64,000 nucleotides of DNA from an uncultured Flavobacteriales bacterium (lineage in GTDB: Bacteria > Bacteroidota > Bacteroidia > CAIKAF01): NCBI GenBank assembly GCA_903825395.1, contig CAIKAF010000003.1:1-64000 (forward strand), written 5' to 3'. The notes beneath the pieces are model-generated. The model was not told the DNA's origin, searched no databases, and saw only the letters and a program-made list of their open reading frames with translations. Both the position numbers and the translations under genes were made by a program. Numbering within the stretch: the stretch's first letter is position 1; each line of letters opens with the position of its first letter. Of the stretch, positions 1,755-62,636 are shown in pieces.

Positions 1755-1906
1755 TTGGGCGGTTGCGGGCTTTCACCGGTAGTCCGCGGTACTCAGTGGG
1801 GGCTCCAGCGGCTTTGCGGTGGCTCCTAAAGTCGCCTCCGCAGCACGCGGAGCCCGGCACTTCGTCCCTTGCGGGCTACCCGGCTCAATCCCTACCGCAG
1901 GGCGCC
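1755..1906 (+). repeat. GC-rich interspersed element, copy 1
   Basis: A roughly 150-bp GC-rich block, 15 nt downstream of the DUF1295 stop and in the same orientation. It begins TTGGGCGGTTGCGGGCTTTC and ends CAATCCCTACCGC. The middle holds a hairpin, CTCCGC-AGCAC-GCGGAG. It matches copies 4 and 7 most closely. ORFs running through it look spurious. Confidence 0.75.
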
Positions 1907-1956
1907 TTGTGCCTAAAATCAGTGAAATTTCTTCGGCCCTATACAGTTCTATTCCA

Positions 1957-2670
1957 ATGCTCAGCATTCAACGCCTAAACTGCGATTCCAGTTGGCTTAT
2001 TTCTACCCCCGAAGCCCATTTGGTGATAGACCCTTGGTTTGAGGGCGTTCAAAAAAACGGTCCGGGCTGGTTCAATACCCAATGGCTTCCCGACTATTCT
2101 CCGGGTTACAAGGCCCTACCCAATTCCTTTTCCGTGTTTGTGGCTTTTCCCTTTACCGATCATTTTCATGCGGAAACGGTACAGCAGCTCAACGCAAAGG
2201 GAGCTGATATTATTTTGGGCTTTAAGGGACCAAAAGCGTATTCCAAAACCATCCACAAGCAGGGGAACATAGGCCCGTTTTACGTGGAAAAAATAGGAGG
2301 CCATTTTCTTCATTCGGGTTGGATTATTCAGGTGGAAGGAAAACGTATTTTTTACACGCCGCATGGGTTCAGTATCGGCAACAATAGAATGCCCGAAGGC
2401 GTTGATATGTGGATTGGAGCTGTAGGTGGGTATGTTCTGCCCTTTTGGTTGGGGGGAGAAATTGCGCTTGGATTTAAGGTCCACCAAAAAACCTTACGGG
2501 CGATGAATCCCAGGTATTTTACCCGTACCCATGACCTTCAAAAGCCGGGTAAAGGGCTGGTGGCTAAATTTGGTAAGTCACAGCAACTTACTGAAGAACA
2601 AGATTCTATCCTTAGTAAGGATTCAAGATTTATCCCTCTTTTGGCAGGTCAAACCTTCATAATTCCTTAA
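1957..2670 (+). CDS. Metallo-beta-lactamase-fold protein with a degenerate metal site
   Basis: I start the gene at ATG 1957 (237 residues, MLSIQRLNCDSSW), because the upstream extension to 1819 is translated repeat element. The layout resembles UlaG-like MBL-fold hydrolases: an N-terminal sandwich strand (STPEAHLVIDPWF), then PFTDHFHAET at about residue 70, then a late YTPHGFS segment. In active relatives the loop reads HxHxDH; here the first two histidines are phenylalanines (FPFTDH), so two zinc ligands appear lost. The protein may be non-catalytic or use another site. The fold is a moderate-confidence call and the function is unknown. Confidence 0.6.
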   Translation: MLSIQRLNCDSSWLISTPEAHLVIDPWFEGVQKNGPGWFNTQWLPDYSPGYKALPNSFSVFVAFPFTDHFHAETVQQLNAKGADIILGFKGPKAYSKTIHKQGNIGPFYVEKIGGHFLHSGWIIQVEGKRIFYTPHGFSIGNNRMPEGVDMWIGAVGGYVLPFWLGGEIALGFKVHQKTLRAMNPRYFTRTHDLQKPGKGLVAKFGKSQQLTEEQDSILSKDSRFIPLLAGQTFIIP

Positions 2671-2741
2671 AAAACTCACATCTTTGGCTTCATTTAGCCT
2701 TAATATGGGGGTTAAAAATAACAACGATAGAGAATAACGCT

Positions 2742-16350: not shown

Positions 16351-16502
16351 GAGGGGGCCCGCGGCCGGGATGGCAGCGGTATGAAACCGACTTGGGCTTG
16401 CTGTTGGGGCAGACCGGCGGAGGCCCGCAGGGACCCCGCACGGGCCAGCCCCAACCAAGCCAAAGGCGGTTGAATACAAGCGGACAGCCCGATAAGCCGC
16501 CC
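16351..16502 (-). repeat. GC-rich interspersed element, copy 2
   Basis: On the minus strand it begins GGGCGGCTTATCGGGCTGTC, one base from the rodA stop, and ends in a CCATCCCGGCCGCGGGCCCC-like motif. It is the same orientation as rodA. It shares its 3' variant with copy 3, so copies 2 and 3 form a subtype. Intergenic, with no credible ORF. Confidence 0.7.
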
Positions 16503-22193: not shown

Positions 22194-22344
22194 GGGCGGC
22201 TATCCGGCTGTTGCTGCAAGTCCTCTGCAGGGGGCAAAACTGCAGCGGCTTTGCGGGGTCCCTCGTTCCTCGGGCCTCCGCAGCACGCGCAGTATAGCCC
22301 CCTGCATTGCGGGCTTTCCGCTCCATCCGGGCCGCGGGCCCCTC
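22192..22344 (+). repeat. GC-rich interspersed element, copy 3
   Basis: Begins TTGGGCGGCTATCCGGCTG right after a T-run and ends ATCCGGGCCGCGGGCCCC. It lies between the purH stop and mreB start, and is antisense to both. The 3' end matches copy 2. Confidence 0.7.
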
Positions 22345-44630: not shown

Positions 44631-44782
44631 TTGGGCGGCAGACGGGCTTTCGCAGGTAGTCCGCGGTGGCCAAACGGGCTGGCTGCGGGCTGCGGTGGCT
44701 CCTAACGTCGCCTCCTCGCCGCGCGCCAGCTGCCGTTGGCCCCCTTGCGGGCAACCTTGCTCAATCCCTGCCGCAGGCGGCC
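44631..44782 (+). repeat. GC-rich interspersed element, copy 4
   Basis: Begins TTGGGCGGCAGACGGGCTTTC immediately after the acnA terminator T-run and ends CAATCCCTGCCGCAGG. Sense to both acnA and xerD. Very similar to copy 7 through most of its length. Confidence 0.75.
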
Positions 44783-47470: not shown

Positions 47471-47594
47471 GTGCAGCCGGCCGCCGCAGGGACCGGGCTG
47501 GCAGGGCGACCAGCGGAAGCCATGCCGGCACGTAGTCCCTGCTGCGGCGGGCAAGCGAGCTACAGTGGAAAGCCCGCAGCCGCCCAAAAAAACA
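47446..47594 (-). repeat. GC-rich interspersed element, copy 5
   Basis: 149 bp, differing from copy 6 at only two positions (47533 and 47543). On minus it begins TTTTTTTGGGCGGCTGCGGGC and ends CAATCCCTGCCGC. It overlaps the 3' end of the cyclase gene and lies 38 nt beyond the stop of the symporter gene, in that gene's sense orientation. Confidence 0.85.
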
Positions 47595-47631
47595 AAGACA
47601 TCAACTTTAAAATTTAAAAGAATTGAGCCAA

Positions 47632-49272
47632 TCAGTCCTTCAAGAACCAATACAACAGCCCTACAATACCGATGATTAGGACGCTAATGGCATTGAAAAA
47701 CCAACCTGTCTTGAAGTCGCTGAAATACAATTTGAAGCCCTTACTGTCGAATTGGCCCTTATGTTGCACAGCACTTACCCCTAGAACCACTCCACAGGTC
47801 AACAAAAATGTAAGGCCCATTTGATGCATAAAAGGCAAGGCCGGGAAAAGGACAGAATCGACCCAACCATTGGCTCCGACTTTAAAATAAAGTGCAAAAA
47901 CAATGGAAACCAATACCCCAATGATGGCGCCCTTATTACTGGCAATTCGGGTAAACAATCCCAAAATAAAAATGGCCAAAATACCGGGGCTTACCAAGCC
48001 TGTATATTCTTGAATAAATTGAAAGGCCTGTTCTATATTTCCGAGCAAAGGAGCCATAATAGAGCCTACGAGCAGGGCCAAAATACCGGAAATCCGGCCA
48101 AAACGAATAAGACTTTTTTCGCTGGGACGCTCTTTACTAAAGGGAGCAAAAATATCCAGAGTTAGAATGGTAGAAGTGGAATTAACCATTGAAGCCAAGG
48201 AGGAAACAATGGCTGCACATAAGGCGGCAAAGGCCAAGCCCTTGATCCCAGTAGGAAGTAATTTTAAAAGCCAAGGGTAAGCCCTGTCGGGGTGCTGACC
48301 TGTTGGAATATAATTCAGAGCTCCTTCGCCCATGCGGCCTAGCATCTCGGAATCTTGAACAATAACAAAAGCGGCAATGCCTGGGATAACCACCAACAAG
48401 GGTAAAATTAATTTGATTGATGCGGCCATTAAAATTCCTTTCTGAGCTTCTTTAATGGACTTGGCAGCCAGGGTGCGTTGAATGATGTACTGATTGAATC
48501 CCCAATAGTAGAGATTCGCAATCCACATGCCGCCCACCAGAACAGCGATTCCGGGAAGATTTACGTATTGAGGATTCGAGGGCTCTAAAATCATTTCAAA
48601 TTTTTCTGGAGCTACCTTATACAAATGAATTAAGCCTTCCCAGGCTCCATTGCCAGCTGAAACAACATCCAAAGCAATAAACGTAGTGAAGCAGCCTCCA
48701 ACCACAAGAAAAACAACCTGAACAACATCGGTCCAGGCAACGGAGGCCAAGCCCCCATAAATGGAGTAGGCTCCAGAGAACAAGGCCAACAGCAAAATAC
48801 CGTACAGCAAGGGTAAATCAAACAAACCTTGAATGGACAAGGCCCCTAAATAGAGAACAGAAGCTATGTTAACAAAGACATACAAAAAGACCCAGAAGAT
48901 GGCTAAAATCGATTTAAGGCGGGTAGAATAGCGTTTTTCTATGAACTCCGGAATGGTTGTAATTTCAAGTTTAAGGTACAAGGGCAGGAAGAACTTGCCC
49001 ACCAGAATCAGCGTAATAGCAGCCATCCACTCGTAAGAGGCAATGGCCAAACCTACAGAAAAACCCGACCCCGACATTCCAATAAACTGTTCTGCGGAGA
49101 TATTGGCTGCAATTAAAGAGGCGCCTATGGCCCACCAGGGTAGAGACTTATTGGCTAGAAAATAATCGGAGGCCGTTGCATTCTTATTCTTGGAGCGCAA
49201 GGCCACAAACCAGCCCAATCCCATAATAATGAGCGCATAAACGACAATGACAAAAAAATCGATGCTTGACAT
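47632..49272 (-). CDS. Sodium:solute symporter (SGLT-like)
   Basis: 546 residues from ATG 49272 (MSSIDFFVIVVYALIIMG); the longer frame crosses the upstream terminator. About 14 membrane segments in the SSS fold with ALRSKNKNATASDYFLANKSLPWWAIGAS in pieces, ISAEQFIGMSGSGF and a YWGFNQYIIQRTLAAKS signature typical of sodium/glucose and sodium/galactose symporters. Its place beside the beta-glucan locus suggests glucose uptake, by inference. Confidence 0.88.
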   Translation of the reverse strand: MSSIDFFVIVVYALIIMGLGWFVALRSKNKNATASDYFLANKSLPWWAIGASLIAANISAEQFIGMSGSGFSVGLAIASYEWMAAITLILVGKFFLPLYLKLEITTIPEFIEKRYSTRLKSILAIFWVFLYVFVNIASVLYLGALSIQGLFDLPLLYGILLLALFSGAYSIYGGLASVAWTDVVQVVFLVVGGCFTTFIALDVVSAGNGAWEGLIHLYKVAPEKFEMILEPSNPQYVNLPGIAVLVGGMWIANLYYWGFNQYIIQRTLAAKSIKEAQKGILMAASIKLILPLLVVIPGIAAFVIVQDSEMLGRMGEGALNYIPTGQHPDRAYPWLLKLLPTGIKGLAFAALCAAIVSSLASMVNSTSTILTLDIFAPFSKERPSEKSLIRFGRISGILALLVGSIMAPLLGNIEQAFQFIQEYTGLVSPGILAIFILGLFTRIASNKGAIIGVLVSIVFALYFKVGANGWVDSVLFPALPFMHQMGLTFLLTCGVVLGVSAVQHKGQFDSKGFKLYFSDFKTGWFFNAISVLIIGIVGLLYWFLKD

Positions 49273-49285
49273 AGGCGGAGCGGGG

Positions 49286-49320
49286 TTAAAAAAACAGAGG
49301 TGGGGTTGCCCCCACCTCTG
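49286..49320 (-). terminator. Terminator of the T9SS glycan-binding gene
   Basis: On minus, an 11-bp stem CAGAGGTGGGG/CCCCACCTCTG followed by seven T. It separates the T9SS gene from the symporter gene. Confidence 0.9.
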
Positions 49321-49343
49321 CATGACTATTCAAAGTAATCCAA

Positions 49344-50456
49344 TTACCGTTTAATCAGGGTTGTTGAATAGCTTCCTTTCATGTGCTCAACGATAACTTG
49401 GTAAACACCAGGTGTCAAATGAGCAATTTGAATTGTTTCTGTGGAAGCAGTAGCTACAATACGACCGGTTACATCAACTACGGTAAGAGCCACAACCTCA
49501 TTGTCGGAACGCACGCTTAGCCAATCTTGTGCAGGGTTTGGATACACTTGCACAGAAGACTCTGAAGACTCAATGCCTGTGGTAGTGCAAGCAGAACAGC
49601 TGTTAAAGCAAACCAAATCCAACACCGCATCGCCGGTTACCTCGTACACACGATTGAAAAATCCATCGTTTACAGTATCGACACAAGACTCACCGCCAAC
49701 GAAATTTTCTTGATCTGACCAACCATTCACTGTGAATTTGTATTGAACAGGGCCTGTAGGTACATCTACCTGCAGTTCCCAAACAGCACCTGAGGTATTT
49801 ACCATAGGAGCGCAAGAACCACACCAGCCGTTCATTTCACCATTTAAGAAAACGCCATTGGCTGTGCTTCCGGTGTATTCGCTCATGTCAACACGGAAGG
49901 TAACTTTGGGCTGAGGTACTGGAATGGTTGATGTTTTTTCATACACAAAACGCCAATAACCACCGCCGAAGTTAATGTCTAAGGTCATTGTTTGATTGTT
50001 GTTGGAAAGAGCTGCTTCATAGATTATAGAAGAGGCGGCCAAACTTGGATTGTTGATTTCAGAACCGTTGATGACCTTAGCCAAGCCCATGTGAGCTCCT
50101 ACTCCATTTACGGTCAAGGTACCTTGGGTGGCGTCGTAGCTCCAAGTGTATTGGCCTGAACCATCGTGGGGAGCTACAGGAGCACCACAGCCATCGGCAC
50201 CGACACCTTGCCATACTTCAACCCAAGTGCTGCCGTCCATGTAATGCAGCATTTCACCGTTCGTGTTAAACGTAACCGAGTCATCAAACAAGCACGCACG
50301 GGTGGTTAAGTCCGTAGGCGAATTGCTCCACCAAGAAATATCACCCTTGTTGGGGCCTACACCCAAAGCACCGGCTTGTTGAGCCAGTTTCCATGTTCCT
50401 TCAACCTGAGCAATCAGGGCAGATGGAACCATCATTGCAAGAAAAAGTTTTTTCAT
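49344..50456 (-). CDS. T9SS-secreted glycan-binding-like protein of the beta-glucan locus
   Basis: 370 residues. Signal peptide (about 1-16). Domain 1 (about 18-175) has GVGPNKGDISWW, CLFDDSVTFNTNGEM and QYTWSYD and matches the C-terminal domain of the neighbouring PKD lipoprotein. Domain 2 (about 183-290) starts KVTFRVDMSEY and looks like a starch-binding/CBM-type sandwich (GVFLNGEMNGWCG, VQYKFTVNGW). A type A T9SS sorting domain follows from about 300 (VYPNPAQDWLSV). It is probably on the surface, binding glucan. Operator site 1 lies 45 nt upstream. Confidence 0.8.
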   Translation of the reverse strand: MKKLFLAMMVPSALIAQVEGTWKLAQQAGALGVGPNKGDISWWSNSPTDLTTRACLFDDSVTFNTNGEMLHYMDGSTWVEVWQGVGADGCGAPVAPHDGSGQYTWSYDATQGTLTVNGVGAHMGLAKVINGSEINNPSLAASSIIYEAALSNNNQTMTLDINFGGGYWRFVYEKTSTIPVPQPKVTFRVDMSEYTGSTANGVFLNGEMNGWCGSCAPMVNTSGAVWELQVDVPTGPVQYKFTVNGWSDQENFVGGESCVDTVNDGFFNRVYEVTGDAVLDLVCFNSCSACTTTGIESSESSVQVYPNPAQDWLSVRSDNEVVALTVVDVTGRIVATASTETIQIAHLTPGVYQVIVEHMKGSYSTTLIKR

Positions 50457-50500
50457 AAGATGAACGTATTTGATTAATTCTAGGTTAAAAGTAAATAATT

Positions 50501-50520
50501 ATTGTATTAAATACAATAAG
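50501..50520 (-). promoter_or_regulatory. Operator site 1 of the beta-glucan regulon
   Basis: On minus: CTTATTGTATTTAATACAAT. Its core is a perfect 8+1+8 inverted repeat (ATTGTATT-A-AATACAAT on plus). It is 45 nt upstream of the T9SS gene and beside a -7-like TACTTTTA (50486-50493). Confidence 0.7.
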
Positions 50521-50525
50521 GAAGT

Positions 50526-51626
50526 TTATTGAAAAACGCGAACGTAATCTACATACATGGATTGAGGGAAAGAAGTTGAGGCATTGGGAGAGCCCGGCCA
50601 GTTTCCGCCTACAGCCACATTGAATATGAAGAAAAACGGCTCATGAAAAGCTGAAAATTGAGCATTGGTAATGGAGAGGGTGTTGTACACTTGGTCATCC
50701 AGCAACCAGGTGATGGATTGAGGATTCCAAATAATGCTGTACACGTGGAACTTATCGGCCAGGGTACCCGAAGAAATCGTTTTACTTCCGGTATGGCTGG
50801 CATGTCCGTTGTTGAACCAATGCGCCGTGCCGTGGGTGGTGCGGTCGTTGTTGCCTTGGCCACCGATCATTTCCATGATATCAATTTCACCGCAATGGGG
50901 CCAGCCAACAGATGAAAACGCATCGCCCAGCATCCACAAAGCGGGCCAGATGCCTTGTCCCTGAGGCATGGCTGCCCGAATATCAATGCGGCCGTATTTC
51001 CATGATTTTTGACCTTGGGTTTTTATTCGGGTAGAGGTATATTGAGAGGTATTGAATGGTTCCTTTTTTGCAGTAATCTCAAGAACTCCTTGCTGAACCC
51101 GCACATTTTGATTGGTATAATATTGAAGTTCATTGTTTCCCCAACCGGAATTTCCTGTTCCTATGTCATATACCCAATCGGCTGAAAGGGCATTCCCCGA
51201 AAACTCATCGCTCCACACCAAGGTATAACCGGGGTACGAGGTTGGGGTGGAATATCCGGTGGAAGGAAAGCTGCCTGAATTGCTGGTATCGACAAACCAA
51301 ATCAGGGAATCTGATTTTTCAATGAAATCGGTGGCCGTAGTGTGGGCCCGAACTCGGTAGGCATAGGTTCCCGGAGCCGGCAATTGCCAGGAAAAATTCC
51401 CTGAGGCCTCTTGAAACTGAATGGAATCGGTCCCGGTCCAAACCGTAGCGGTATAAAAATTCGTTAAATCGGCCTGAGCCGTTATTTCAGCCAGACCGGT
51501 TTCAGAAACTAGGGCTGAAATCTGAAGGTTTTCGGGCAATGTCACCTGATTAACAGGGTCAGAATCGCAGCTTGAAAGGGAGATGAGGGCAGCTAGGGCT
51601 GAAAAAGAAAAAAGAGAATGCATCAT
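50526..51626 (-). CDS. GH16 family endo-beta-glucanase (laminarinase-like) lipoprotein
   Basis: 366 residues. Lipobox LSSC (Cys20), an N-terminal beta-sandwich (about 28-110), then GH16 (about 130-366) with LVWSDEFSGNALSADWVYD, the catalytic EIDIMEMIG (nucleophile Glu, helper Asp, acid/base Glu) and a YVDYVRVFQ ending. The family cuts beta-1,3 or mixed-linkage glucans, and the EIDIME form with the intact beta-bulge fits laminarinase. It should sit on the outer membrane. Its ATG overlaps the PKD gene stop. Confidence 0.92.
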   Translation of the reverse strand: MMHSLFSFSALAALISLSSCDSDPVNQVTLPENLQISALVSETGLAEITAQADLTNFYTATVWTGTDSIQFQEASGNFSWQLPAPGTYAYRVRAHTTATDFIEKSDSLIWFVDTSNSGSFPSTGYSTPTSYPGYTLVWSDEFSGNALSADWVYDIGTGNSGWGNNELQYYTNQNVRVQQGVLEITAKKEPFNTSQYTSTRIKTQGQKSWKYGRIDIRAAMPQGQGIWPALWMLGDAFSSVGWPHCGEIDIMEMIGGQGNNDRTTHGTAHWFNNGHASHTGSKTISSGTLADKFHVYSIIWNPQSITWLLDDQVYNTLSITNAQFSAFHEPFFFIFNVAVGGNWPGSPNASTSFPQSMYVDYVRVFQ

Positions 51627-52480
51627 TGGGCAGGAACGAGTTTAATGTACCAATGCAGACCGCCGGCATGGTGTTTATATTGAAGGCTGATGTGGGTATC
51701 GGAAAATTCCAAAATTCGGTAGGTGCGAACCCCCGAGTAAAAGCCCAGAAAGGCATTCCCGGAAATTTCTAAAAATGCATTGTCTCCTTCTTCAATTAAG
51801 TTCCAGGTGGATGCAATGTTGTCATCGTATGGAGCGGTGTAGTCTCCTTTGTTCATAAACGACCCCGGGAATTCAGCGGCAATCGTGTTGTGTACATACA
51901 CATCTCCGTTGGTCTGCATGGTAAATCCAAAACCACTAAGGGAAAAGGTGTATCGGTCATCGTACAGTCCACAACCGGTTTTATCGGCTGGATTTGCGGC
52001 CCACCATTCGGGAATGGCGCCTGCAGCACTTTCGGGATCGGGTCCTACGCCCATGTGGCCGGTAGCCATAGAATCAATTCTCCAAGTGCGGACTCCGCCG
52101 TTGTCCAATCCCCCGGTAAGGGCATTAAAAACGGGGTGATCCAAGAGCGAAAGGTCATCCTGGTCGATGGTAACCGTAACGGAATTGGTGCGGCTTCCAC
52201 CTTTGTTAAACACCCGAACTTGAACCGTGTAGGTTCCGGCATAGGGAAAACGACCTTCCACAGAAGTACCTTTGGCACCGGTTTGGTTTCCGAAATCCCA
52301 AGTGGCCAAAAGCTGTTCATTTCCACAGCGGAACAATAGGATGTTGTTGGAGTTGGGTGAAACTTCCACAAAAATTTGAGCATCCTGTTCGGTGGGAGGA
52401 GGCCCCAACTCAGGATCTGCCTGTTGACAAGCGCTACCTAGTAAAATAAAACCAAGAAGGTAAAAAGCTAACTGTTTCAT
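51623..52480 (-). CDS. PKD-domain surface glycan-binding lipoprotein
   Basis: 285 residues. Lipobox GSAC (Cys18), a PKD-like domain (about 30-105, ATWDFGNQTGAKG and FPYAGTYTVQVRVFN), then a domain of about 160 residues with HMGVGP, WWAANPADKTGCGLYDDRYTF and a HWYIKLV end, shared with the T9SS gene product downstream. Its position between susD and GH16 is where surface glycan-binding proteins usually sit. No catalytic motif is seen. Confidence 0.8.
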   Translation of the reverse strand: MKQLAFYLLGFILLGSACQQADPELGPPPTEQDAQIFVEVSPNSNNILLFRCGNEQLLATWDFGNQTGAKGTSVEGRFPYAGTYTVQVRVFNKGGSRTNSVTVTIDQDDLSLLDHPVFNALTGGLDNGGVRTWRIDSMATGHMGVGPDPESAAGAIPEWWAANPADKTGCGLYDDRYTFSLSGFGFTMQTNGDVYVHNTIAAEFPGSFMNKGDYTAPYDDNIASTWNLIEEGDNAFLEISGNAFLGFYSGVRTYRILEFSDTHISLQYKHHAGGLHWYIKLVPAQ

Positions 52481-52491
52481 AATTCAGGTAT

Positions 52492-53952
52492 TTAATAACC
52501 GGGGTTTTGCATCCATGAGCCACCGGCCAAATCGATTTCAACTTGAGGGATGGGGAACAATTCGTGTTTTGAAGGAACAAATCCGGGAATAAAATCGGCG
52601 GCCTTTCCTGTGCGGACCAAATCGAAAAAGCGGTGACCTTCGCAAGAGAGTTCCAATCTTCGTTCCTTTAAAATATCATCGATTGAATTTACGGAAATTC
52701 CCGGAATTTGTACGCGGCTACGCACCTGATTCACATACTGCTGAGCCTGGGGTTTATTGCCGGTCATTAAATGGGCTTCGGCGGCCATCAATAGCACATC
52801 GGCATAGCGAATCACTTTGTAATTTAAGGGACTGGTCAAATCGTTATCGGGCAAGCCAATTTCGCCCTGACGCTTGATGTATTTGTTGTTGTAATAGCCC
52901 GTATGTCCGCCTCCGCCAATGGCATAGGTAATGGCAGCAGGATTGGGTTGGGCGGCAATGAAGGCCTCAATATCCAATACTGTGGCATTGCGCCTTGGGT
53001 CAATCGGGGCAAAAGCCGAGTACAATTCCGCTGTAGGTAGGTTGTAGCTGTTTCCATCGCCATAAACAGGCCCGGTGTACTGACGAATCCCATGAAAGCC
53101 AGGACCGGCATTACCTTCCAGGCAAACCAAGCAGCCATAGCTTCCGCCTTCTAAACCAGAGTATTCAACGCTAAAAATGGTTTCGGAATTTTGCTCATTT
53201 ACCAAAGTCCACAATTCCGAATAATTTGGATGCAGGGCAAATTGACCCGACTGAATAATTTCTTCAAACACCGGCAGGGCATCGGAATACTTATTTTGAT
53301 ATAAATAAGCCTTGCCCAGTAAAGCCTGTGCTGCGGCCTTGGTTACCCTACCCTTTTGGCTGGCAATGGTGGACAAATCAGGAATGCTGGCCTGTAAGTC
53401 GGCCACAATCTGAGCATACACATCAGATTGAGCTGCCCTTGGCCGTTGAGCGGCTTCTTCGATTCCCAAGCGTTCATCCACAATAAGTGGAACATCTCCA
53501 AAAAACTTCGTCAACTCGAAATAGTAGAACGCTCTTAAAAAACGGGCTTCCGCCAGCAGCTGGGCCTTTCCAGGAAAATCAATATTGTCTTTGTTTTCCA
53601 TGATAAAATTCACCCTGCCAATCCCGGCATAATTCCAGCGAAACACATTTCTCAATTCGGTATTTACTGCTCCGTGCTGCATGCCATCAATTTGGTGCAG
53701 TCCTTGCGTGTCGTTGAAACTTTCTCCGCCGGCAATGGTATTGTCTGAGGCAATTTCGCCAATCCAAACCGACAAAAAAGAGGACTGCAGCAAATCGTAA
53801 GCTCCCACCAGGGCGCGTTGGTAGTCTTCAGGCGTCCTGAAGTAATTTTCAGCATCCTGGGCATAGGGCGGATTGACCTCCAAGAAATCATCGCAGGAAG
53901 AAAAAGAAAGCGTTAGGCAGAGTAAGGCAGCAATTCGGAATACCGTTTTCAT
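52492..53952 (-). CDS. SusD/RagB family glycan-binding lipoprotein
   Basis: 486 residues from ATG 53952 (MKTVFRIAALL); the longer frame overlaps susC. Lipobox FSSC, then DDFLEVNPPYAQDAENYFRTPEDYQRALVGAYDLL in pieces, the helical TPR-like core (EARFLRAFYYFELTKFFGDVPLI) and the SusD C-terminal part (LKERRLELSCEGHRFFDLVRTG). It caps the SusC channel and delivers oligosaccharides. It lies 4 nt after susC. Confidence 0.95.
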   Translation of the reverse strand: MKTVFRIAALLCLTLSFSSCDDFLEVNPPYAQDAENYFRTPEDYQRALVGAYDLLQSSFLSVWIGEIASDNTIAGGESFNDTQGLHQIDGMQHGAVNTELRNVFRWNYAGIGRVNFIMENKDNIDFPGKAQLLAEARFLRAFYYFELTKFFGDVPLIVDERLGIEEAAQRPRAAQSDVYAQIVADLQASIPDLSTIASQKGRVTKAAAQALLGKAYLYQNKYSDALPVFEEIIQSGQFALHPNYSELWTLVNEQNSETIFSVEYSGLEGGSYGCLVCLEGNAGPGFHGIRQYTGPVYGDGNSYNLPTAELYSAFAPIDPRRNATVLDIEAFIAAQPNPAAITYAIGGGGHTGYYNNKYIKRQGEIGLPDNDLTSPLNYKVIRYADVLLMAAEAHLMTGNKPQAQQYVNQVRSRVQIPGISVNSIDDILKERRLELSCEGHRFFDLVRTGKAADFIPGFVPSKHELFPIPQVEIDLAGGSWMQNPGY

Positions 53953-53956
53953 CGGA

Positions 53957-56900
53957 TTAAAATTTAAGTTGAACTCCACCCATAAAGGAACGGGCTTGAG
54001 GATAAAAACCATTGTCCACACCGGCGCTCAAAATCGAGGCCGAGGAAAATTCGGGATCAAACCCTTTATAGGCCGTAAACGTAAACGCATTGTTCACCGA
54101 ACCATAAATGCGAATGCCTTGAATTTTAAGTTTTGAAAGCCATTTTGCCGGAAAGCTGTATCCCAATTGAATGTTACGAACCCGTAAAAAAGAGGCATCT
54201 TCTACGAAATAGGAGGAAAAAATCGCATTTCGGGTAGGTTCGGTGGTTAGTCGGGGGTGTTCGTTGGTAGAACCGGGCCCTACCCAGCGGTCAATCACAT
54301 AATCCAATTGATTGGCAAAGGGCTGTTGGCGCTCGTAATTTCGAATGGCCTCCTGCCCTACTGCTGCATATAGGTTTAGGGACAAATCAAAACCTTTGAA
54401 TCCGGCATTCAGCATCAATCCCATCGTAAAATCAGGAATAGGTGAACCTAAAAAGGCTTTGTCTGAATCGTCATTAAAATTGATAACACCGTCTCCATTT
54501 TGATCGACAAAGATCAAATCACCGGGCTGAGCCCCATCCTGCTGAGGAGCATTATCAATTTGATCTTGGGTTTGGAACACCCCGTTGGTTTCAAATCCAA
54601 AGAAATAGCCGATGGGCTGACCCACCTGAAAACGGGTTGCCACATCGCCCCCCACTCCAAAGGCGGCTCCCGGAAGGTAATCGATGCCGACAGGAACCGA
54701 AAGCACTTCGTTGTGCACCATTCCGAAGGTGTATTTACCTGAAAATTGGAAGGGAGAGCGTACTGGAGTTTGGTAGGCCAGTTCCAGCTCAAACCCCCGG
54801 TTCAACACATCGCCGGCGTTGATTACCGGAGGGAATCCACCCGGACCGTAGGACCCAATTAAAGCCGACACATCGGGCTGGAACAACAAATTGGAGGTGC
54901 GTTTTTCGTACACATCCAAGGCCAATTGAAGCGTATTAAACAGAGACAAATCAACTCCCACATTCATTTGCAGGGTAGATTCCCATTTCAAATCCGGGTT
55001 GGCTGCAGTGCCAATAGCTACTCCAGAGGTAATTACATCGTCGAATACATAAACCCCTTCTCCATTCAACAACGCCCGGTAGGCGAAATTGGGAATTTGG
55101 TCGTTCCCCGACAACCCTACGCTGCTGCGTAATTTCAAGTAATCGATGAACGAACTGGAATAAAAAGCTTCGTCTGAAATTACCCAGGCTCCGGCGATGG
55201 TGGGGAACCAACCATAGCGGTTGTTCGGACCAAACTTGCTACTGCCATCGCGGCGCAGCAAGGCTGAAACCATATATTTTTCCTTGTAGGCGTATTCTAC
55301 GCGACCAAAGTAGGACAACAGGCGCTCGGTAAATTCCCAACTGAAGGTATTGTTTAAAAACCCGCCGGCAGCCGTATTGGCTGAAATATCAGCAAATTCC
55401 AAGGAATTGTTAGGAATTCCATAGGCAATACCCGACAGCGATTCGCCCTTGCGTTCAAACAAAGAAAATCCCAACAGCCCTTTCAATTTATGGTGTTCCG
55501 CAATGGTGGTTTCATAGTTCAAGAATCCTTCGTACGAAAGGTCGAGAAAGGAGGTGTTTTCTTCATACACTGCTGCTCCACGCTCCACCATAAAGCTGTC
55601 TGCAATGGCCACCATAGGCGATTCCAACTGTTCGTTGATGGCGGTATTGGCGAATTTGCCGGGACCGTACCATACCAGCGGGGAAAACACCTTATTCTGA
55701 AGGCTTGCATAATTGAAATTAAAGCGGTTGGTGAAGGTTAATCCCTTTAGAATATCAATTTCTACCTCTTCTTTGCCCACCCATTTCATGGTTTGTACGC
55801 CATTGTATTGGTTTTGAATTTGGGCGATGGGATTGATGATGTCGTTGACCTCTTCCAGGTACGAAAACCGACCGTCAGGAAGGCGCACCGGAGCTGTGGG
55901 AAAGGCATTAATGGTATTGTACAACACCGAACCAATACCATTCTCAGGAAGCGTTCTACGGAATTCACTTGAAAACAACAGCACAGAATTGAAGCGAACG
56001 CGCTTGGAAAGCACATGCGAGAAATTCAACCTGCCATTGTACCTTGAAAAATGCGATTTATTTCCCCCCACAATACCGTCTTGACTAAAATAGCCCAAGC
56101 CCATAGAATAGGTTGATTTTTCCGATCCGCCTTGGATGCCGAGTTGGTGCGATTGAATGGGTGCAGTAGAAAAAACACTGTCTTGCCAAGGCGTACCCAC
56201 TCCCACATTGGTATTGTTGAACGGAAGCGGCTGTCCGCCCATGGCAAACATTTCGTTTTTAATGACCGCGTATTCTTGAGCGTTCAGCAAGTTGAGTTGA
56301 CGAGCGGTTTGTTGAATTCCGGCATACCCGTCGTAACTAATGCGCATGGGAGCGCCCTTCTTGCCTTGCTTGGTGGTCACCAAAATTACTCCGTTTGCCG
56401 CTCGAACTCCATAAATACCGGCGGAAGCATCCTTCAACACCTGCACCGATTCAATGTCGGAAGGGTTCAGGGCATTTAATCCTTCTGAATCGTACACCAC
56501 CCCATCCACTAAAATCAAGGGGTCGTTGTCGCCAAAGGTAGATAAGCCTCGAATGCGAATGCTGGAAGAGCCTCCGGGGCTTCCTGAATTGGTGGTTACG
56601 GTAACTCCCGCCATTTGACCTTGCAAGGCCTGATCCATCCGCGATACGTTCAGCTTGGTTAAATCTTCTCCTTCTACTTGACTGGATGCGGCGGTCATCT
56701 CCTTGCGGGAAGAAGTTCCATACCCCACCATTTGATATTCCGACAGGCGCTGTACATCTTCTTGAAGCGTCACCTTTAAAAATTCAGAACCGCTGATGGG
56801 CAACGACTGCCGCTTAAAACCAATGGCGCTGAATTCCAGCGTAGCTGCCGAAGAATCGGAAAGGTTCAACTGGAAAATACCGTTTAAATCGGTTTGCGTT

Positions 56901-57046
56901 CCTGAGCCACTGCCTTTGGACACCACATTGACAAATGGAATGGGCTGACCTTTGGAATCGCTCACCAAACCCTTAATAACTTGGGCTGATAGGTTGGTCA
57001 TTAAAGGCAATGCAAGCAATGAAAATCCCAGTAGAAAACGAAACAT
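53957..57046 (-). CDS. SusC/RagA TonB-linked outer membrane transporter
   Basis: 1029 residues. Signal peptide (about 1-21), carboxypeptidase-regulatory-like domain (about 24-95), plug (about 105-230, with YGTSSRKEMTAASSQVEGEDL in pieces, GVTVTTNSGSPGGSSSIRIRG in pieces, and DASAGIYGVRAANGVILVTTKQG in pieces), then the beta-barrel ending GGVQLKF. It imports oligosaccharides with SusD. It is the first gene of susC-susD-PKD-GH16. Operator site 2 overlaps its promoter. Confidence 0.95.
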   Translation of the reverse strand: MFRFLLGFSLLALPLMTNLSAQVIKGLVSDSKGQPIPFVNVVSKGSGSGTQTDLNGIFQLNLSDSSAATLEFSAIGFKRQSLPISGSEFLKVTLQEDVQRLSEYQMVGYGTSSRKEMTAASSQVEGEDLTKLNVSRMDQALQGQMAGVTVTTNSGSPGGSSSIRIRGLSTFGDNDPLILVDGVVYDSEGLNALNPSDIESVQVLKDASAGIYGVRAANGVILVTTKQGKKGAPMRISYDGYAGIQQTARQLNLLNAQEYAVIKNEMFAMGGQPLPFNNTNVGVGTPWQDSVFSTAPIQSHQLGIQGGSEKSTYSMGLGYFSQDGIVGGNKSHFSRYNGRLNFSHVLSKRVRFNSVLLFSSEFRRTLPENGIGSVLYNTINAFPTAPVRLPDGRFSYLEEVNDIINPIAQIQNQYNGVQTMKWVGKEEVEIDILKGLTFTNRFNFNYASLQNKVFSPLVWYGPGKFANTAINEQLESPMVAIADSFMVERGAAVYEENTSFLDLSYEGFLNYETTIAEHHKLKGLLGFSLFERKGESLSGIAYGIPNNSLEFADISANTAAGGFLNNTFSWEFTERLLSYFGRVEYAYKEKYMVSALLRRDGSSKFGPNNRYGWFPTIAGAWVISDEAFYSSSFIDYLKLRSSVGLSGNDQIPNFAYRALLNGEGVYVFDDVITSGVAIGTAANPDLKWESTLQMNVGVDLSLFNTLQLALDVYEKRTSNLLFQPDVSALIGSYGPGGFPPVINAGDVLNRGFELELAYQTPVRSPFQFSGKYTFGMVHNEVLSVPVGIDYLPGAAFGVGGDVATRFQVGQPIGYFFGFETNGVFQTQDQIDNAPQQDGAQPGDLIFVDQNGDGVINFNDDSDKAFLGSPIPDFTMGLMLNAGFKGFDLSLNLYAAVGQEAIRNYERQQPFANQLDYVIDRWVGPGSTNEHPRLTTEPTRNAIFSSYFVEDASFLRVRNIQLGYSFPAKWLSKLKIQGIRIYGSVNNAFTFTAYKGFDPEFSSASILSAGVDNGFYPQARSFMGGVQLKF

Positions 57047-57063
57047 ACCTGAAGTTTAGAAGT

Positions 57064-57071
57064 CAAATATA
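57064..57071 (-). promoter_or_regulatory. -7 box TATATTTG of susC
   Basis: Perfect consensus on minus, 17 nt from the susC ATG. The operator overlaps its upstream edge; no -33 TTG. Confidence 0.5.
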
Positions 57072-57088
57072 GTATTTTTTACAATAAG
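57069..57088 (-). promoter_or_regulatory. Operator site 2 (susC)
   Basis: On minus: CTTATTGTAAAAAATACTAT, 23 nt before the susC ATG and overlapping the -7 box by 3 nt. It matches site 3 at 16 of 20 positions. Confidence 0.65.
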
Positions 57089-57123
57089 TTAATCCTGGGC
57101 TCATTTTCCATTAAAAAATAAGC

Positions 57124-57828
57124 TCAGAGCCACATATTGAATTCAAAACGACCTTCTTTTACCAAGGTCTTATACTTTTCCCAATCGAAGGAATACAGCG
57201 TTGCCGGGCGGTGTTTTACATTTTCCTGCCGTTCTTTCAGCTCGGTCAGCGGTAAATTTTTTATGCGCTTTCTGAAATTGGGTTTATCGATGCAAATGCC
57301 AAAGGCATATTCGTAGAGTTGCTGCAGCTCGTTCAAGGTAAACTTCAAGGGCAGCATTTCAAAGCAAATGGGCTCGTGAATAAAGCGTTCTTTTAGCCGC
57401 TGGTAGGTTGCCGTTAAAATTTCATTGTGGTCAAAGGCGAGCGATTCCACTTCATCGACAGGAACCCAGCGCAGTTCTTCCACCCAAGATGAAGGTTGGG
57501 GATTGGTTTCGTTCATGCGCACCATGGCCAGATAGGCATTGGTAATAACCCGGCCCTGAGGGTGTCGGTTCGGTTTTCCAAAAACCCCACCCTGCCGAAG
57601 CACCACATTTTTAAGTTCCGTCAGCTCTTCCAGAATGCGTTCAGCGGCATGGGGCAAATCTTCATCCGGATACACCAAATCGCCGGGAATAGCCCAATAT
57701 CCACCGTAGGGTTCCATGGCGCGTTTTACCAACAGAATGTGGATTTTTCCATTTGAAAAGCCAAAGATTAGGCAATCCATGGAAAAGGAGTAGGAAAAAA
57801 ACTGGTCAAATTTAATTTTATAGACCAT
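57124..57828 (-). CDS. NrtR-like Nudix-related transcriptional regulator
   Basis: 234 residues. An N-terminal Nudix fold (about 15-140) with GGYWAIPGDLVYPDED and AAERILEELTEL, where the first catalytic Glu of the Nudix box appears replaced by Asp, so catalysis is doubtful. The C-terminal part (about 145-234; FTLNELQQLYEYAFG, NFRKRIKNLPLTEL) is a winged helix. NrtR-type proteins use the Nudix fold to sense sugar- or nucleotide-derived ligands. It follows bglX by 9 nt, in the same operon, and probably binds the three operators in this locus. Confidence 0.85.
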   Translation of the reverse strand: MVYKIKFDQFFSYSFSMDCLIFGFSNGKIHILLVKRAMEPYGGYWAIPGDLVYPDEDLPHAAERILEELTELKNVVLRQGGVFGKPNRHPQGRVITNAYLAMVRMNETNPQPSSWVEELRWVPVDEVESLAFDHNEILTATYQRLKERFIHEPICFEMLPLKFTLNELQQLYEYAFGICIDKPNFRKRIKNLPLTELKERQENVKHRPATLYSFDWEKYKTLVKEGRFEFNMWL

Positions 57829-57837
57829 AGTAGGAAA

Positions 57838-60171
57838 TTAAGGTTCTAGGAACAGATTTAGGGTGGAATCAAACACCTGAAGGCGTATGGGGCCGCGCGA
57901 TTGTGTCCAGTTTCCGGAGTAATCTGCAAACTCAAATTGAGTTGCTGTTAAAGGAAAACGGAAGGATACTGCACTGCCCTGAGGCACCCACTTTTTTTGA
58001 AAATCAATCAAGTACTTGCCCCGTTGAGCAATGGGTAGGTTTCTTCGGCTCGCAAATACAGGCACACTGACCTGGCAAGGCCGGTCGGCATTGTGCCTAA
58101 GGCGCAGTTCAAGCCAAACCGTATCTGCGGCTCTTAAGGTATCGGCCGAGATGGAACTGGCATCGACCGTCCAGGAAGCGTAAGACATGCCTTGCCCAAA
58201 ATCCCAGGCCAGATTGTAGCCCTGCAAGGAATTGTCTTTCCCTATATTTTCGCTGTGGGCATGGTCGTAATGCTCCCAGCGGCCCGGATGCCTTGGATAG
58301 GTAAAGGGGAGGCGGCCGGAAAAATCAGCCGCGCCGTACATTTTATCCAAAAACGGCTGAGTAAAATGTTCGCCGGGCAAATAGGCATGTACAATGGCAT
58401 CGGCATCGTCTACGATGCTGCCCAGCAACTTGGGCCGTCCCAGCATAAGCACCACCACCACGCGTTTTCCGGCGGCCTTTAGCTCATGCACCAAATCCAT
58501 TTGGTTTTGAGTAACATAGGGATTCTCTTCGTCTCCCGGTTTTTCTGTTCCCGGCCATTCTGAAACAAACACCACGCACACGTCGGCCGATTCCAAGGCC
58601 TTTTTATGTTGAGCCGTCAATCCGGAACCGGTGCTGGGCAATCCGCTGGCTTCAGCCCAGGAACTGCCTGTAAGGTATTGAACCTGTCCTTGCTGCACTT
58701 CGGCCCGCCGTTGCCATTCCTTCAACAGCGAAATATCGGTTGAAAAATAACTGGAATCGCGGCCCTGCCACGTGTGCGTCCAGGCTCCATTCCAAAAGCG
58801 GCGGTCGGTAGCCGCTTGTCCCAACACCAGCACAGAAGAGTTGGATTGAAGAGGCAGGACTGAATTCTCATTTTTCAACAAGGTTAGCGACTCTGAAACC
58901 GCTTGTTTTGCTGCCGCTACAGATGATTCAGCCTGCAGCATAATCAAGGCTTGTTTGCTTTTTTTGCTGGGCATATCGAACAAACCTGCCGCCAACTTTA
59001 CCCGTAGAATGCGCTTCACCGCATCGTCAAGGCGGGCCATAGGCACACGGCCCTCCAACACCAATTCTTCCAGCAAGCGGCAGTATTCCTTGTATTGTGG
59101 ATTTAGGGGAACCATACTCATATCAATACCGGCATTGATGGCCATAGCGATGGCCTCTTTGTGCGAGGGGGCCACCTGATGCACCCGTTCCAAAAACAGA
59201 ATATCTTCCCAATCGGTGACGGCAAATCCTTTAAATCCCCACTGATTTTTCAAAACATCGGTAATTAAATGTGCATTGATGTGTCCCGGCATACCGTTCA
59301 GCGAAGCACTGTTGATCATCACTGTAAGGGCGCCGGCATCCACGGCCGACTTAAAAGGTGGCAGGTACAATTCGGTCAAATCTCGGGGAGAAATGATGGC
59401 CGGAGTTCGGTCTCGGCCGGAAGCCGGAGCACTGTAGCCCGCAAAATGCTTCATGCAGGCCAGCACTCGATTGGAAGCCAGCTTAGAGGCATTCAAATCG
59501 CCTTGGTACCCGGAAACAATGGCCGTTCCCAGAACAGAAGCCAGCTTGGGGTCTTCCCCCAGGGTTTCAAAAAAACGAGACCAAAGGGGTTGCCGCCCCA
59601 AATCCAATACCGGTGAAAAATTCCAAGGCACTCCGGACGAGCGGGTTTCCATGGCCGTAATTTCTCCGAATTGCCGGGCTACATCGGCATTAAACGTAGC
59701 CGCCAACCCAATTTCCTGAGGAAACAAAGTAGCTCCCAACACATAATTGGCTCCATGTATGGCATCAACTCCATATATAACAGGAACCGCAATTTCCTTT
59801 TTAAGGTAGGGTGCATGAATGGCTTGAATCAAATTCAGCCAGTCCAAGCGTGGAATGGCTCGGCCCGGTGCATTGAGGATGCTGCCCACATAATAAGTGC
59901 GCAGGGCCTCGTTCAGTTCTGCCGCATTCACTTGAAGCGGCAGGGGCAAGCTACCGTCGGAATTAAAGCGCAAAATCCCTTCCACCGTAATTTGGCAGGT
60001 CTGCCCTACCTTTTGTTTCAGCGACAGGGTTTTTAAAATCGCATCCGCCTGGGCATCAATCTCGGTCCAGTTTGTTTGAGTCTGAGCAGAAATAGGCCAC
60101 AGACCGCAGCAAACCAAAACCAGTAGGAAATTGAAGTTAAAATAAGACCGTTTGAATTGGAGTGTGGACAT
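57838..60171 (-). CDS. bglX: Beta-glucosidase, glycoside hydrolase family 3
   Basis: 777 residues from ATG 60171 (MSTLQFKRSYFNFNFLLVLV), which gives a clean signal peptide ending ISAQ; the frame extends 38 codons further across the operator. GH3 N-terminal barrel with VPVIYGVDAIHGANYV and the nucleophile Asp in GFAVTDWED, GH3 C-terminal sandwich (AVSESLTLLKNENSVLPL, VVVLMLGRPKLL) and a fibronectin-like end (about 680-777). It is periplasmic and releases glucose from beta-gluco-oligosaccharides. The downstream regulator gene follows after 9 nt. Confidence 0.93.
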   Translation of the reverse strand: MSTLQFKRSYFNFNFLLVLVCCGLWPISAQTQTNWTEIDAQADAILKTLSLKQKVGQTCQITVEGILRFNSDGSLPLPLQVNAAELNEALRTYYVGSILNAPGRAIPRLDWLNLIQAIHAPYLKKEIAVPVIYGVDAIHGANYVLGATLFPQEIGLAATFNADVARQFGEITAMETRSSGVPWNFSPVLDLGRQPLWSRFFETLGEDPKLASVLGTAIVSGYQGDLNASKLASNRVLACMKHFAGYSAPASGRDRTPAIISPRDLTELYLPPFKSAVDAGALTVMINSASLNGMPGHINAHLITDVLKNQWGFKGFAVTDWEDILFLERVHQVAPSHKEAIAMAINAGIDMSMVPLNPQYKEYCRLLEELVLEGRVPMARLDDAVKRILRVKLAAGLFDMPSKKSKQALIMLQAESSVAAAKQAVSESLTLLKNENSVLPLQSNSSVLVLGQAATDRRFWNGAWTHTWQGRDSSYFSTDISLLKEWQRRAEVQQGQVQYLTGSSWAEASGLPSTGSGLTAQHKKALESADVCVVFVSEWPGTEKPGDEENPYVTQNQMDLVHELKAAGKRVVVVLMLGRPKLLGSIVDDADAIVHAYLPGEHFTQPFLDKMYGAADFSGRLPFTYPRHPGRWEHYDHAHSENIGKDNSLQGYNLAWDFGQGMSYASWTVDASSISADTLRAADTVWLELRLRHNADRPCQVSVPVFASRRNLPIAQRGKYLIDFQKKWVPQGSAVSFRFPLTATQFEFADYSGNWTQSRGPIRLQVFDSTLNLFLEP

Positions 60172-60211
60172 TTTTGTAAATTTGGTCAAAACGAACCGAA
60201 AGGTACAAAGA

Positions 60212-60231
60212 CTTATTGTATTTAATACTAC
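60212..60231 (-). promoter_or_regulatory. Operator site 3 (bglX)
   Basis: On plus: CTTATTGTATTTAATACTAC, 41 nt upstream of bglX. The palindromic core TTGTATTTAATAC is shared with site 1. Sites 1 and 3 agree at 17 of 20 bases, in opposite orientation relative to their genes. Confidence 0.7.
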
Positions 60232-60304
60232 AACTAACCTGAAAAATTGAGGATTCGGTAGTTGGCAGATGAAGGTAAGGCACACGAATTAGGTATTGAG
60301 GATT

Positions 60305-60453
60305 GCGGCAGGGATTGCAACGGCAGTGAGTGCAGCCGGCCGCCGCAGGGACCGGGCTGGCAGGGCGACCAGCGGAAGCCATGCCGGCACGAAGTCCCTG
60401 CGGCGGCGGGCAAGCGAGCTACAGTGGAAAGCCCGCAGCCGCCCAAAAAAACA
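60305..60453 (-). repeat. GC-rich interspersed element, copy 6
   Basis: 149 bp, two mismatches against copy 5. Contains a perfect 14-bp stem, GCCGCCGCAGGGAC (60339-60352) with its complement at 60394-60407, enclosing an inner GCTGG/CCAGC stem, plus a flanking GCGGGC/GCCCGC hairpin. It lies between the divergent bglX and rpsF promoters, 6 nt before the rpsF -33 box. Confidence 0.85.
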
Positions 60454-61169: not shown

Positions 61170-61175
61170 GAAGTC

Positions 61176-61673: not shown

Positions 61674-61680
61674 ATCTTGA
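61673..61680 (+). promoter_or_regulatory. -7-like box TATCTTGA, 4 nt from xth ATG
   Basis: Two bases off TAnnTTTG but with the same 4-nt spacing to ATG 61685 as the leaderless candidates. It emerges directly from the terminator T-run. Confidence 0.3.
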
Positions 61681-61684
61681 GCCC

Positions 61685-62449
61685 ATGAAAATTATTTCCT
61701 ACAACGTTAACGGAATTCGTTCTGCCCTCAACAAAGGATTGTTGGATTGGCTGGCTGCGGAATCGCCCGATGTGCTCTGCCTGCAAGAGTTAAAAGCCAT
61801 GGAAGACCAAGTGGATTGGGCTCCGTTTCAGCGCATGGGCTACCACATTTACCTGAATCCGGCTCAGAAAAAGGGCTACAGCGGAGTGGGAATCCTTTCC
61901 AAGCAGCCGGCCGATCGGGTGGTTTGTGGTATGGGCATAGCCCATCACGATGCCGAGGGGCGGGTAATCCGGGCCGATTTTGGGGCATTGACCTTGGTGA
62001 GCGCCTACTTTCCCAGTGGGACTTCGGGCGAGGAGCGGCAAGACGTCAAGTATCAATTTTTATCGGACATGTCGGACTGGTCGGACCGGTTGAAATCGGA
62101 GCGGCCTCATACCGTATTGGTGGGCGATGTAAACATTTGCCATCGGGAGATGGACATCCACAATCCCATTTCGAACAAAAACAGCACCGGATTTTTGCCT
62201 GAGGAGCGGGCTTGGGTTGACTCCTTTTTGCGTGGGGGTTGGGTGGACAGTTTTCGGGCGCTGAATCCGGAGCTGCAGCAGTATTCCTGGTGGAGTTTTC
62301 GGGCCAATGCCCGGGCCAACAACAAGGGCTGGCGCATTGACTATCAGTTTGTTACTGAGGCCTTGTGGCCGCAGGTCAAGTCGGCCGCCTTGCTGCATGG
62401 GGCGCAGCATTCCGACCACTGCCCTACCCTGCTGGAGCTATCGGCTTAG
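61685..62449 (+). CDS. xth: Exodeoxyribonuclease III
   Basis: 254 residues of the exonuclease-endonuclease-phosphatase fold: MKIISYNVNGIRSALNKG, DVLCLQELKAMEDQ (metal Glu), YSGVGILSK, VLVGDVNICHREMDIHNP and a HSDHCPTLLEL ending with catalytic Asp-His. It is an AP endonuclease and 3' exonuclease in base excision repair. It has no terminator; the GC-rich element follows by 36 nt. Confidence 0.94.
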   Translation: MKIISYNVNGIRSALNKGLLDWLAAESPDVLCLQELKAMEDQVDWAPFQRMGYHIYLNPAQKKGYSGVGILSKQPADRVVCGMGIAHHDAEGRVIRADFGALTLVSAYFPSGTSGEERQDVKYQFLSDMSDWSDRLKSERPHTVLVGDVNICHREMDIHNPISNKNSTGFLPEERAWVDSFLRGGWVDSFRALNPELQQYSWWSFRANARANNKGWRIDYQFVTEALWPQVKSAALLHGAQHSDHCPTLLELSA

Positions 62450-62485
62450 GGGCAATACAAATAAAGACAATAGAATGGGGATACG

Positions 62486-62636
62486 TTGGGCGGCGGACGG
62501 GCTTTCACCGGTTGTCCGCGGTGGCCGGGCGGGCTGTTGGCGGGCTGCGGTGGCTCCCAAGGTCGCCTCCTCGCCGCGCCACAGCGGCCGCCGGCCCCCT
62601 TGCGGGCAACCCGGTTCAATCCCTGCCGCGGGCGGG
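62486..62636 (+). repeat. GC-rich interspersed element, copy 7
   Basis: Begins TTGGGCGGCGGACGGGCTTTC, ends CAATCCCTGCCGCGGGC, in xth's sense orientation. Close to copies 1 and 4. Confidence 0.75.

Follow-up and report, generated by a model that had tools for sequence, protein, structure and literature searches.

The first 64,000 nucleotides of contig CAIKAF010000003.1 from an uncultured Flavobacteriales bacterium (GenBank assembly GCA_903825395.1; this whole stretch is referred to as the window) carry seven copies of one GC-rich hairpin repeat of about 142 nt, which probably spreads as DNA. An earlier note on the same sequence had described seven GC-rich blocks, without strands, as a single family of structured intergenic elements. 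This description stands: all seven are present, copies 1, 3, 4 and 7 in plus and copies 2, 5 and 6 in minus orientation (Table 1), their G+C content is 0.68–0.78 compared with 0.457 for the window, and a single covariance model, R1, recovers every copy with boundaries spanning 140–142 nt. R1 was built from 31 aligned copies of the window's genome (G000; 2,625,067 bases in 33 contigs) and comprises 142 positions and 55 pairs. Its scores separate at least three classes, namely copies 1, 4 and 7 (116–137 bits; copy 3 at 86.6), copy 2 (33 bits) and copies 5 and 6 (31 bits); three further R1 rows in the window (16–20 bits) are the opposite strand of hairpins 4, 1 and 7. The two 3′ subtypes distinguished earlier hold as described except in copy 1, which instead terminates in CTACCGC. 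Identity with a known RNA or tRNA was rejected: Rfam at gathering thresholds and ARAGORN report only a tRNA-Lys at 41709 in the window, and no Rfam family matches any of the elements at E values up to 10.

Table 1. The seven copies of the repeat and associated features of the window (R1, model of G000 copies; R2, model of short relatives, see text).
Feature	Position	Strand	Evidence
Element copy 1, main class	1757–1898	+	R1 116.6 bits, E 1.4e-22
Element copy 2, divergent class	16361–16502	-	R1 33.3 bits, E 7e-5; R2 20.2 bits, E 0.046
Element copy 3	22194–22335	+	R1 86.6 bits; R2 22.3 bits, E 0.014
Element copy 4, main class	44633–44774	+	R1 136.6 bits
Element copy 5, class common to copies 5 and 6	47446–47585	-	R1 30.5 bits; R2 19.1 bits over 47497–47585
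Segment of 12.7 kb bounded by direct copies 5 (left end) and 6 (right end)	47586–60304	n/a	Genome comparison
Element copy 6, class common to copies 5 and 6	60305–60444	-	R1 30.6 bits; R2 16.8 bits over 60356–60444
Element copy 7, main class	62488–62629	+	R1 116.3 bits
Tyrosine recombinase remnant, C-terminal part, downstream of copy 7	62918–63079	+	Frame with HWLRHSWANRRLKSGTDFRYIQE

The repeat is built as one long imperfect hairpin, which reads GGGCGGC NNN CGGGCTTTC, a variable stem, the apical GCGGTGGCTCCYAARGTCGCCTCC, the second arm, TTGCGGGCTACC and TCAATCCCTGCCGC. Its foot is closed either by GCGGC pairing with GCCGC, the closing stem that the earlier note had recognised, or by GCGTT pairing with AACGC. 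The motifs that remain unpaired or mismatched (CGGGCTTTC, TCAATCCC and the apical GGCTCCYAARGTCGCC) are conserved, and loops and ends are nearly fixed; the arms differ freely from copy to copy with their complementarity kept. Covariation, which the earlier note had proposed to look for, is strong among the 31 copies: both sides have changed at 36 of the 55 pairs, 88.8% of cells are paired compared with 75.8% after shuffling and 42–52% with the partners slid, and the covariation score is 0.295 against 0.092 for shuffled alignments, none of 500 shuffles scoring as high. Because these copies were selected by their head motif, its invariance arises by construction; the tail ATCCCTGCCGC, which was not used for selection, is identical in 31 of 31.

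A genome-wide search with R1, likewise suggested by the earlier note, reveals at least 150 copies in G000, all 150 scored candidates having matched at an E value of 1.3e-15 or better. This figure is a lower bound because 150 of 694 candidates were scored, and it corresponds to at least one copy per 17.5 kb; copies 2, 3, 5 and 6 of the window score below this list. By pattern, GGGCGGCNNNCGGGCT with up to two mismatches occurs at 124+108 places in G000 against 35+42 for the reversed pattern, and GGGCGN{2,22}CGGGCTWTC gives 188 matches against 1 for the control. R1 matches were found in nine of 40 genomes, G000 included: in all six of the genus (46 to at least 80 matches each), in three of the ten remaining genomes of the family (13, 1 and 1 matches) and in none of the 24 that represent other families of the class. 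The earlier note had made the family depend on further copies, on covariation and on whether a related family was already explained; the copies are many, the covariation is strong, and the related Rfam family, Flavo-1, is itself unexplained. Two genomes, G002 and G004, hold a sister class with another sequence, the same plan and the apical loop GCTTCCTNTGGTCGC; in G004 these elements (L225, L227, L234, L242 and others) often precede a second palindrome, CCCACGGTTNNAACCGTGGG, several times in L242. In a close relative, G003, contigs C26, C215, C240 and C89 terminate in or at elements, and the repeats therefore seem to break assemblies.

The ends GGGCG..CGGGCTWTC ... ATCCC..NCGC also mark elements of 77–99 nt in other Bacteroidota, where the earlier note had placed similar elements. 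The pattern counted above occurs 66 times against 3 for the control in 29 genomes of another family (f28), not all 66 being element-like, and its tally of 169 of 296 genomes is not a measure of spread because many GC-rich genomes show no excess over the control. Elements of 84–99 nt lie in most f28-type loci read, in G162 and in a Vicingaceae metagenome-assembled genome; one example of a short member reads GGGCGTKACC..GGGTCGGGCTWTCCGCT..AAGTCCTCG-hairpin-CTGTGGGCTTT..ATCCCTMACGC. Flavo-1 (RF01705), which Rfam types as a small RNA (sRNA), matches 14 of 15 short-member loci (L162 and 14 of the 15 read short-element loci, L302 being left out) at E up to 0.05, all on the opposite strand and five of the 15 above the gathering threshold of 42 bits; it also matches several plasmid and viral members below gathering. 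No window copy matches it at gathering, nor with the E limit raised to 10. A second model, R2, built from 22 short members without the window, yields only four matches in the window at E up to 1, to copies 3, 2, 5 and 6, on the right strand and weak (16.8–22.3 bits; E 0.014–0.31). Copy 3 scores highest with R2, the matches to copies 2 and 3 have ends and strand identical to the R1 boundaries, and copies 1, 4 and 7 are missed. The link to Flavo-1 that the earlier note had raised is thus borne out for the short relatives and, weakly, for four copies through R2, and fails as a direct match. On the best explanation, the window copies belong to a long, GC-rich branch that this genus has strongly amplified, and the short members of the same family are those listed by Rfam as Flavo-1.

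This family, Flavo-1 included, extends from Bacteroidota to plasmids of Gammaproteobacteria. In blastn searches, 85 plasmid records hold related elements of 76–84 nt with 60–95% identity to the query (Bacteroides 59, Phocaeicola 12, Parabacteroides 11, Butyricimonas 1 and, with a longer middle, Moraxella 2), and R2 finds the plasmid elements of Moraxella (E 3.5e-13), Vibrio (about 1e-7) and Shewanella (2e-6) as well as copies on viral contigs; in E. coli a motif-like query has no match. On pBF9343 and CP103245 the element overlaps a resolvase-family gene (by Pfam on the homologue in NZ_CP018939) by one base, its own first and the gene's last. The Vibrio plasmid copies are 147–148 nt long, and their left flanks are unrelated, several copies being alike only over the element plus 2–5 bases (eight were read, L346 and L350 being one locus on two plasmids). 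A Moraxella bovoculi plasmid, L343, carries tandem copies (1159–1316 and 1501–1658) whose 45-base left flanks are identical, apparently through tandem duplication. Plasmid copies L322, L324, L327, L328, L329, L331, L341 and L342 all have ArdC-like, antirestriction or ParB genes at a distance of no more than about 0.75 kb, an arrangement suggestive of the leading region of conjugative plasmids. Elements lie inside open frames in three viral contigs (L337:5274–5786, L332:7930–8601 and L333:1838–2359) and read GRSPSGRA...IPNA; L337 and L332 have an inverted second copy at the opposite end of the same frame, and the only Pfam match, a DnaA-like domain behind the element, is in L333. A literature search, with many subscription journals outside its scope, returned no description of the family beyond Flavo-1 among the matches listed.

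Across 56 G000 copies the left end is fixed beside unrelated flanks. The upstream flank is T-rich and nearly C-free over its last 8 bases, and the downstream flank is rich in C and A after a few RGGC-like bases. By a simple rule, 54 of these copies have an open reading frame (ORF) on both sides; the upstream gene lies on the same strand in 36 of the 54 (p 0.02 with one half as a crude expectation) and on the opposite strand in 18, convergent settings number 19 and divergent ones nine, and the co-directional settings split 17 to 9 (p 0.17). The median gap is 32 bp after a same-strand upstream stop compared with 100 bp before a downstream gene in convergent orientation (p 0.009). Some copies form close inverted pairs with their 3′ ends facing, such as C5:70569/70752 and C23:150708/150937 in G000. 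Within the window, copy 1 starts 16 bp 3′ of a DUF1295 gene (808–1740; Pfam), the first base of copy 2 is the last base of an FtsW/RodA-like ORF on the same strand (16502–17881, minus; Pfam), and copy 4 lies directly 3′ of a terminator-like hairpin and T run, judged by eye.

Window copies 4–7 and further G000 copies from two stretches (e copies, L254; f copies, L255) were compared with their orthologous places in related genomes. At an identity of 69–83%, G001, G005 or both keep an element at the orthologous place of copies 5, 6, 7, e1, e4 and e5; for copy 7 it is present in both, 65–66% identical including 20-nt flanks. Element presence differs between species: copy 4, present in G003, has no R1 match at the matching place in G005 and G001, f4 has no element there in G001 and G005, and e3 has none in G005. 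Three rearrangements have an end at elements. In G001 the 12.7-kb segment bounded by direct copies 5 and 6 was not found, and one element lies at the junction; the G000 segments enclosed by the inverted pairs e1/e2 and f5/f6 are inverted in G005, one junction having been read for each. Copies 5 and 6 are identical to each other at 138 of 140 bases in G000 and likewise at 138 of 140 in G005, whereas comparisons between the two genomes give 117 and 120 identical bases of 140; being alike within and unlike between species, they point to conversion, exchange or separate duplication. In e4, one base of the outer stem differs between G000 and G001, and the inner hairpin differs in both arms as a whole.

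The first alternative to spread as DNA is a structured RNA, whose copies would be transcribed, in many cases at the 3′ end of an mRNA or as an sRNA, and would bind a protein or protect or end the transcript. The strong covariation and the conserved loops favour it, as do TTCG loops on a small 5′ hairpin of the Moraxella, Vibrio and viral members, the Rfam typing of Flavo-1, and the prevalence of same-strand upstream genes (36 of 54) with a short median distance past their stop codon. RNA families are expected to keep far more G-U than A-C pairs. In 95 distinct copies, the 52 pairs with a Watson–Crick majority give 4928 cells, of which 4615 are Watson–Crick; G-U (41) is nearly as rare as A-C (39), shuffles giving about 160 of each; in an alignment not fitted to the model the counts are 32 and 24 (shuffles 58 and 61). 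The tRNA control (18 tRNAs; G-U 29, A-C 0, one ARAGORN call on an element, L075, being excluded) is not independent, as ARAGORN marks only pairs that it accepts itself. Changes in place are few and mostly uncompensated: nine orthologous copies of G000 and G003 differ at 13 paired sites, small numbers of which 12 are one-sided (five to non-standard pairs, four to A-C, three to G-U) and one is compensated, and 10 of 11 are uncompensated without e4, which lies at a G003 contig end. Individual copies therefore lose pairing where they sit, but as a set the copies stay well paired, as is expected if intact hairpins multiply or if arms are recopied as DNA. At 18 of 54 loci the upstream gene and the element are on different strands, and a study of F. 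psychrophilum places Flavo-1 matches ‘indistinctly’ sense or antisense of transcribed regions, with many outside them (PMC9723704). Judged from these alignments, selection on RNA pairing appears disfavoured, apart from a lean at the 18 most variable pairs, where G-U (38) exceeds A-C (21; shuffles 117 and 107), and a structured RNA is unlikely to account for the family.

With spread as DNA preferred, the candidates for a mover are a Y1 transposase and a tyrosine recombinase. Y1_Tnp (PF01797) is matched at E up to 0.001 in five of ten genomes (G000, G002, G003, G004 and G015), three times in G000 and there once 155 bp after an element; as the mover it was rejected because two genomes of the genus that are rich in elements, G001 and G005, have no match. 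The tyrosine recombinase, often beside elements, is the best lead. At the site of its remnant near copy 7, a 347-bp stretch is 75.8% identical to the locus of an intact gene in G005, which itself starts about 85 bp after an element. An intact XerD gene (44862–45761; NCBIfam 343.9 bits, cut-off 329.6) adjoins copy 4, and the window closes, after the remnant, with a SIR2-like gene (63309–64000; L083:1309–2013).

Integron integrases act on folded single-stranded attC sites, and the repeats could similarly be attachment sites for a tyrosine recombinase acting on folded single-stranded DNA, with the adjoining genes and remnants as its partner; we regard this as rather improbable. Within the genus, R1 places an element upstream on the same strand and within 0.7 kb of 11 of 16 recombinase fragments, or of 14 of 16 when loop-pattern matches are included, but the fragments of G002 and G004 are not independent because the sequence between element and fragment is common to both. 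Outside the genus, R1 finds no same-strand element close upstream of a recombinase. At 82 recombinase loci there, R2 gives five matches, three of them at most about 0.4 kb upstream of the recombinase and in other genera (L198 and L214 on the same strand, L157 on the opposite); these three exceed chance placement by a rough estimate, but the remaining loci have no R1 or R2 match so near upstream. Inversions and a deletion end in elements, as attachment sites would allow. Conversely, the two intact recombinases of G000 are one clear XerD and one not typed, the G005 recombinase scores below the NCBIfam cut-offs for XerA and for integron integrases (TIGR02249 196.6 against 265), the element ends do not have the attC form RYYYAAC..GTTRRRY, and for several G004 elements the stretch read contains no remnant. 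Of the 34 loci read among 80 Bacteroidota recombinase loci (L144–L223), many, such as L155 and L167, have an inverted repeat ending like ATAARNAAGTTAG 60–120 bp past the recombinase stop, followed by unrelated genes in an integron-like layout with one site.

That the hairpin forms a transcription boundary, stopping RNA polymerase or protecting 3′ ends between convergent genes, is highly improbable: the excess of convergent over divergent settings (19 to 9) and the inverted pairs with facing 3′ ends would suit it, but the T-rich flank precedes the hairpin and an A/C-rich flank follows, neither strand having a hairpin and then a T run, copy 4 and L007 already follow a terminator (by eye), and nine of the 54 loci lie between divergent genes. 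An intrinsic terminator was rejected for the same order of flanks.

Of the three functions left open by the earlier note, a structured RNA is therefore disfavoured by the G-U/A-C balance and the uncompensated changes, a transcription boundary by the T run before the hairpin, and a mobile element fits best. The window elements are probably a palindromic repeat that spreads as DNA, comparable to miniature inverted-repeat transposable elements (MITEs) or repetitive extragenic palindromic (REP) elements, mobile or duplicating, and that acts as a folded DNA hairpin. A trans-acting enzyme would recognise the folded foot, the internal loops and the apical loop rather than the sequence of the stem, and the well-folded copies would then be the ones that multiply. 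A copy once placed may change without repair of its pairing, copies may swap sequence among themselves, as the exchanged inner hairpins and the near-identical pair 5/6 suggest, and rearrangements would end in copies.

Several observations weigh against this account. No mover is proven, and Y1_Tnp is found in none of G001, G005, G009, G013 and G014, of which G001 and G005 are full of elements. All ten G000 copies that could be assessed in G003 (4, 5, e1, e2, e3, e4, f1, f2, f5 and f6; blocks 95–98.5% identical) are present there, e3 cut by a contig end, so that no recent movement is seen. No exact empty site or target duplication was found at the f4 and copy 4 loci, where the flanks are too diverged, nor any empty site among 31 plasmid records with both flanks of one Bacteroides element, all 31 being occupied. 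The right end is less clean than the left, as G000 copies have RGGC-like bases in common after it and Vibrio copies have more right flank in common; repeat-associated rearrangements can arise by ordinary recombination; and the elements prefer the 3′ side of genes, often just past the stop codon. The most variable pairs lean to one folded strand and the motifs are nearly invariant. The nine orthologous copies differ by 1.5% (19 of 1275 bases) compared with 1.5–4.8% for the aligned blocks and therefore decay no faster than their surroundings, which makes some constraint possible.

That an RNA is functional is usually proved by covariation. Between the copies of this family covariation is strong, but changes in place are uncompensated and G-U is hardly favoured. 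More tentatively, and with some doubt, Flavo-1 may be no RNA family but the short Bacteroidota branch of cross-phylum mobile folded-DNA elements recognised by shape, that is, by two conserved ends and an apical loop holding an interchangeable hairpin of any sequence, so that one enzyme, perhaps a tyrosine recombinase, could still serve hundreds of diverged copies. If the pairing pattern holds in larger samples, a catalogued RNA family would really be mobile DNA, other repeat-like candidate RNAs would need both pairing tests, and Bacteroidota and several Gammaproteobacteria would have an unrecognised element in common, on chromosomes and plasmids.

Among known systems, Flavo-1 is closest in that it matches the short family members and has the same end motifs and the same hairpin plan. 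It differs in matching on the opposite strand and in matching no window copy; the window copies are about 60 nt longer, GC-rich and without the small hairpin near the 5′ end, at least 150 of their type occur in one genome, and relatives also lie on plasmids of Gammaproteobacteria. REP elements and bacterial interspersed mosaic elements (BIMEs), with their REP-associated tyrosine transposases (RAYTs, of the Y1 type), resemble the repeat in their many intergenic palindromes, close inverted pairs and presumed movement in trans. REP elements measure 20–40 bp and have a short GTAG- or CGTC-tagged stem (PMC3733652). The elements described here are far longer, their stems are not conserved, two element-rich genomes of the genus are without Y1_Tnp, and no GTAG or CGTC tag stands at the foot, which begins GGGCG. 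Enterobacterial repetitive intergenic consensus (ERIC), Correia and Rickettsia palindromic elements are palindromic repeats of 100–150 nt that are sequence-related throughout; the length is similar, and as in Rickettsia some copies lie in frame in ORFs, but here the stems vary almost without restriction from copy to copy. Integron attC sites conserve structure over sequence, have conserved unpaired bases and end in RYYYAAC/GTTRRRY. The repeat shares the first two traits and often has a tyrosine recombinase near; unlike attC, it lacks those ends, occurs in both orientations, mostly kilobases apart, and neighbours a recombinase below the integron-integrase cut-off. As in MITEs, finally, a precise left end stands in unrelated flanks, both in the G000 copies and in those on Vibrio plasmids.

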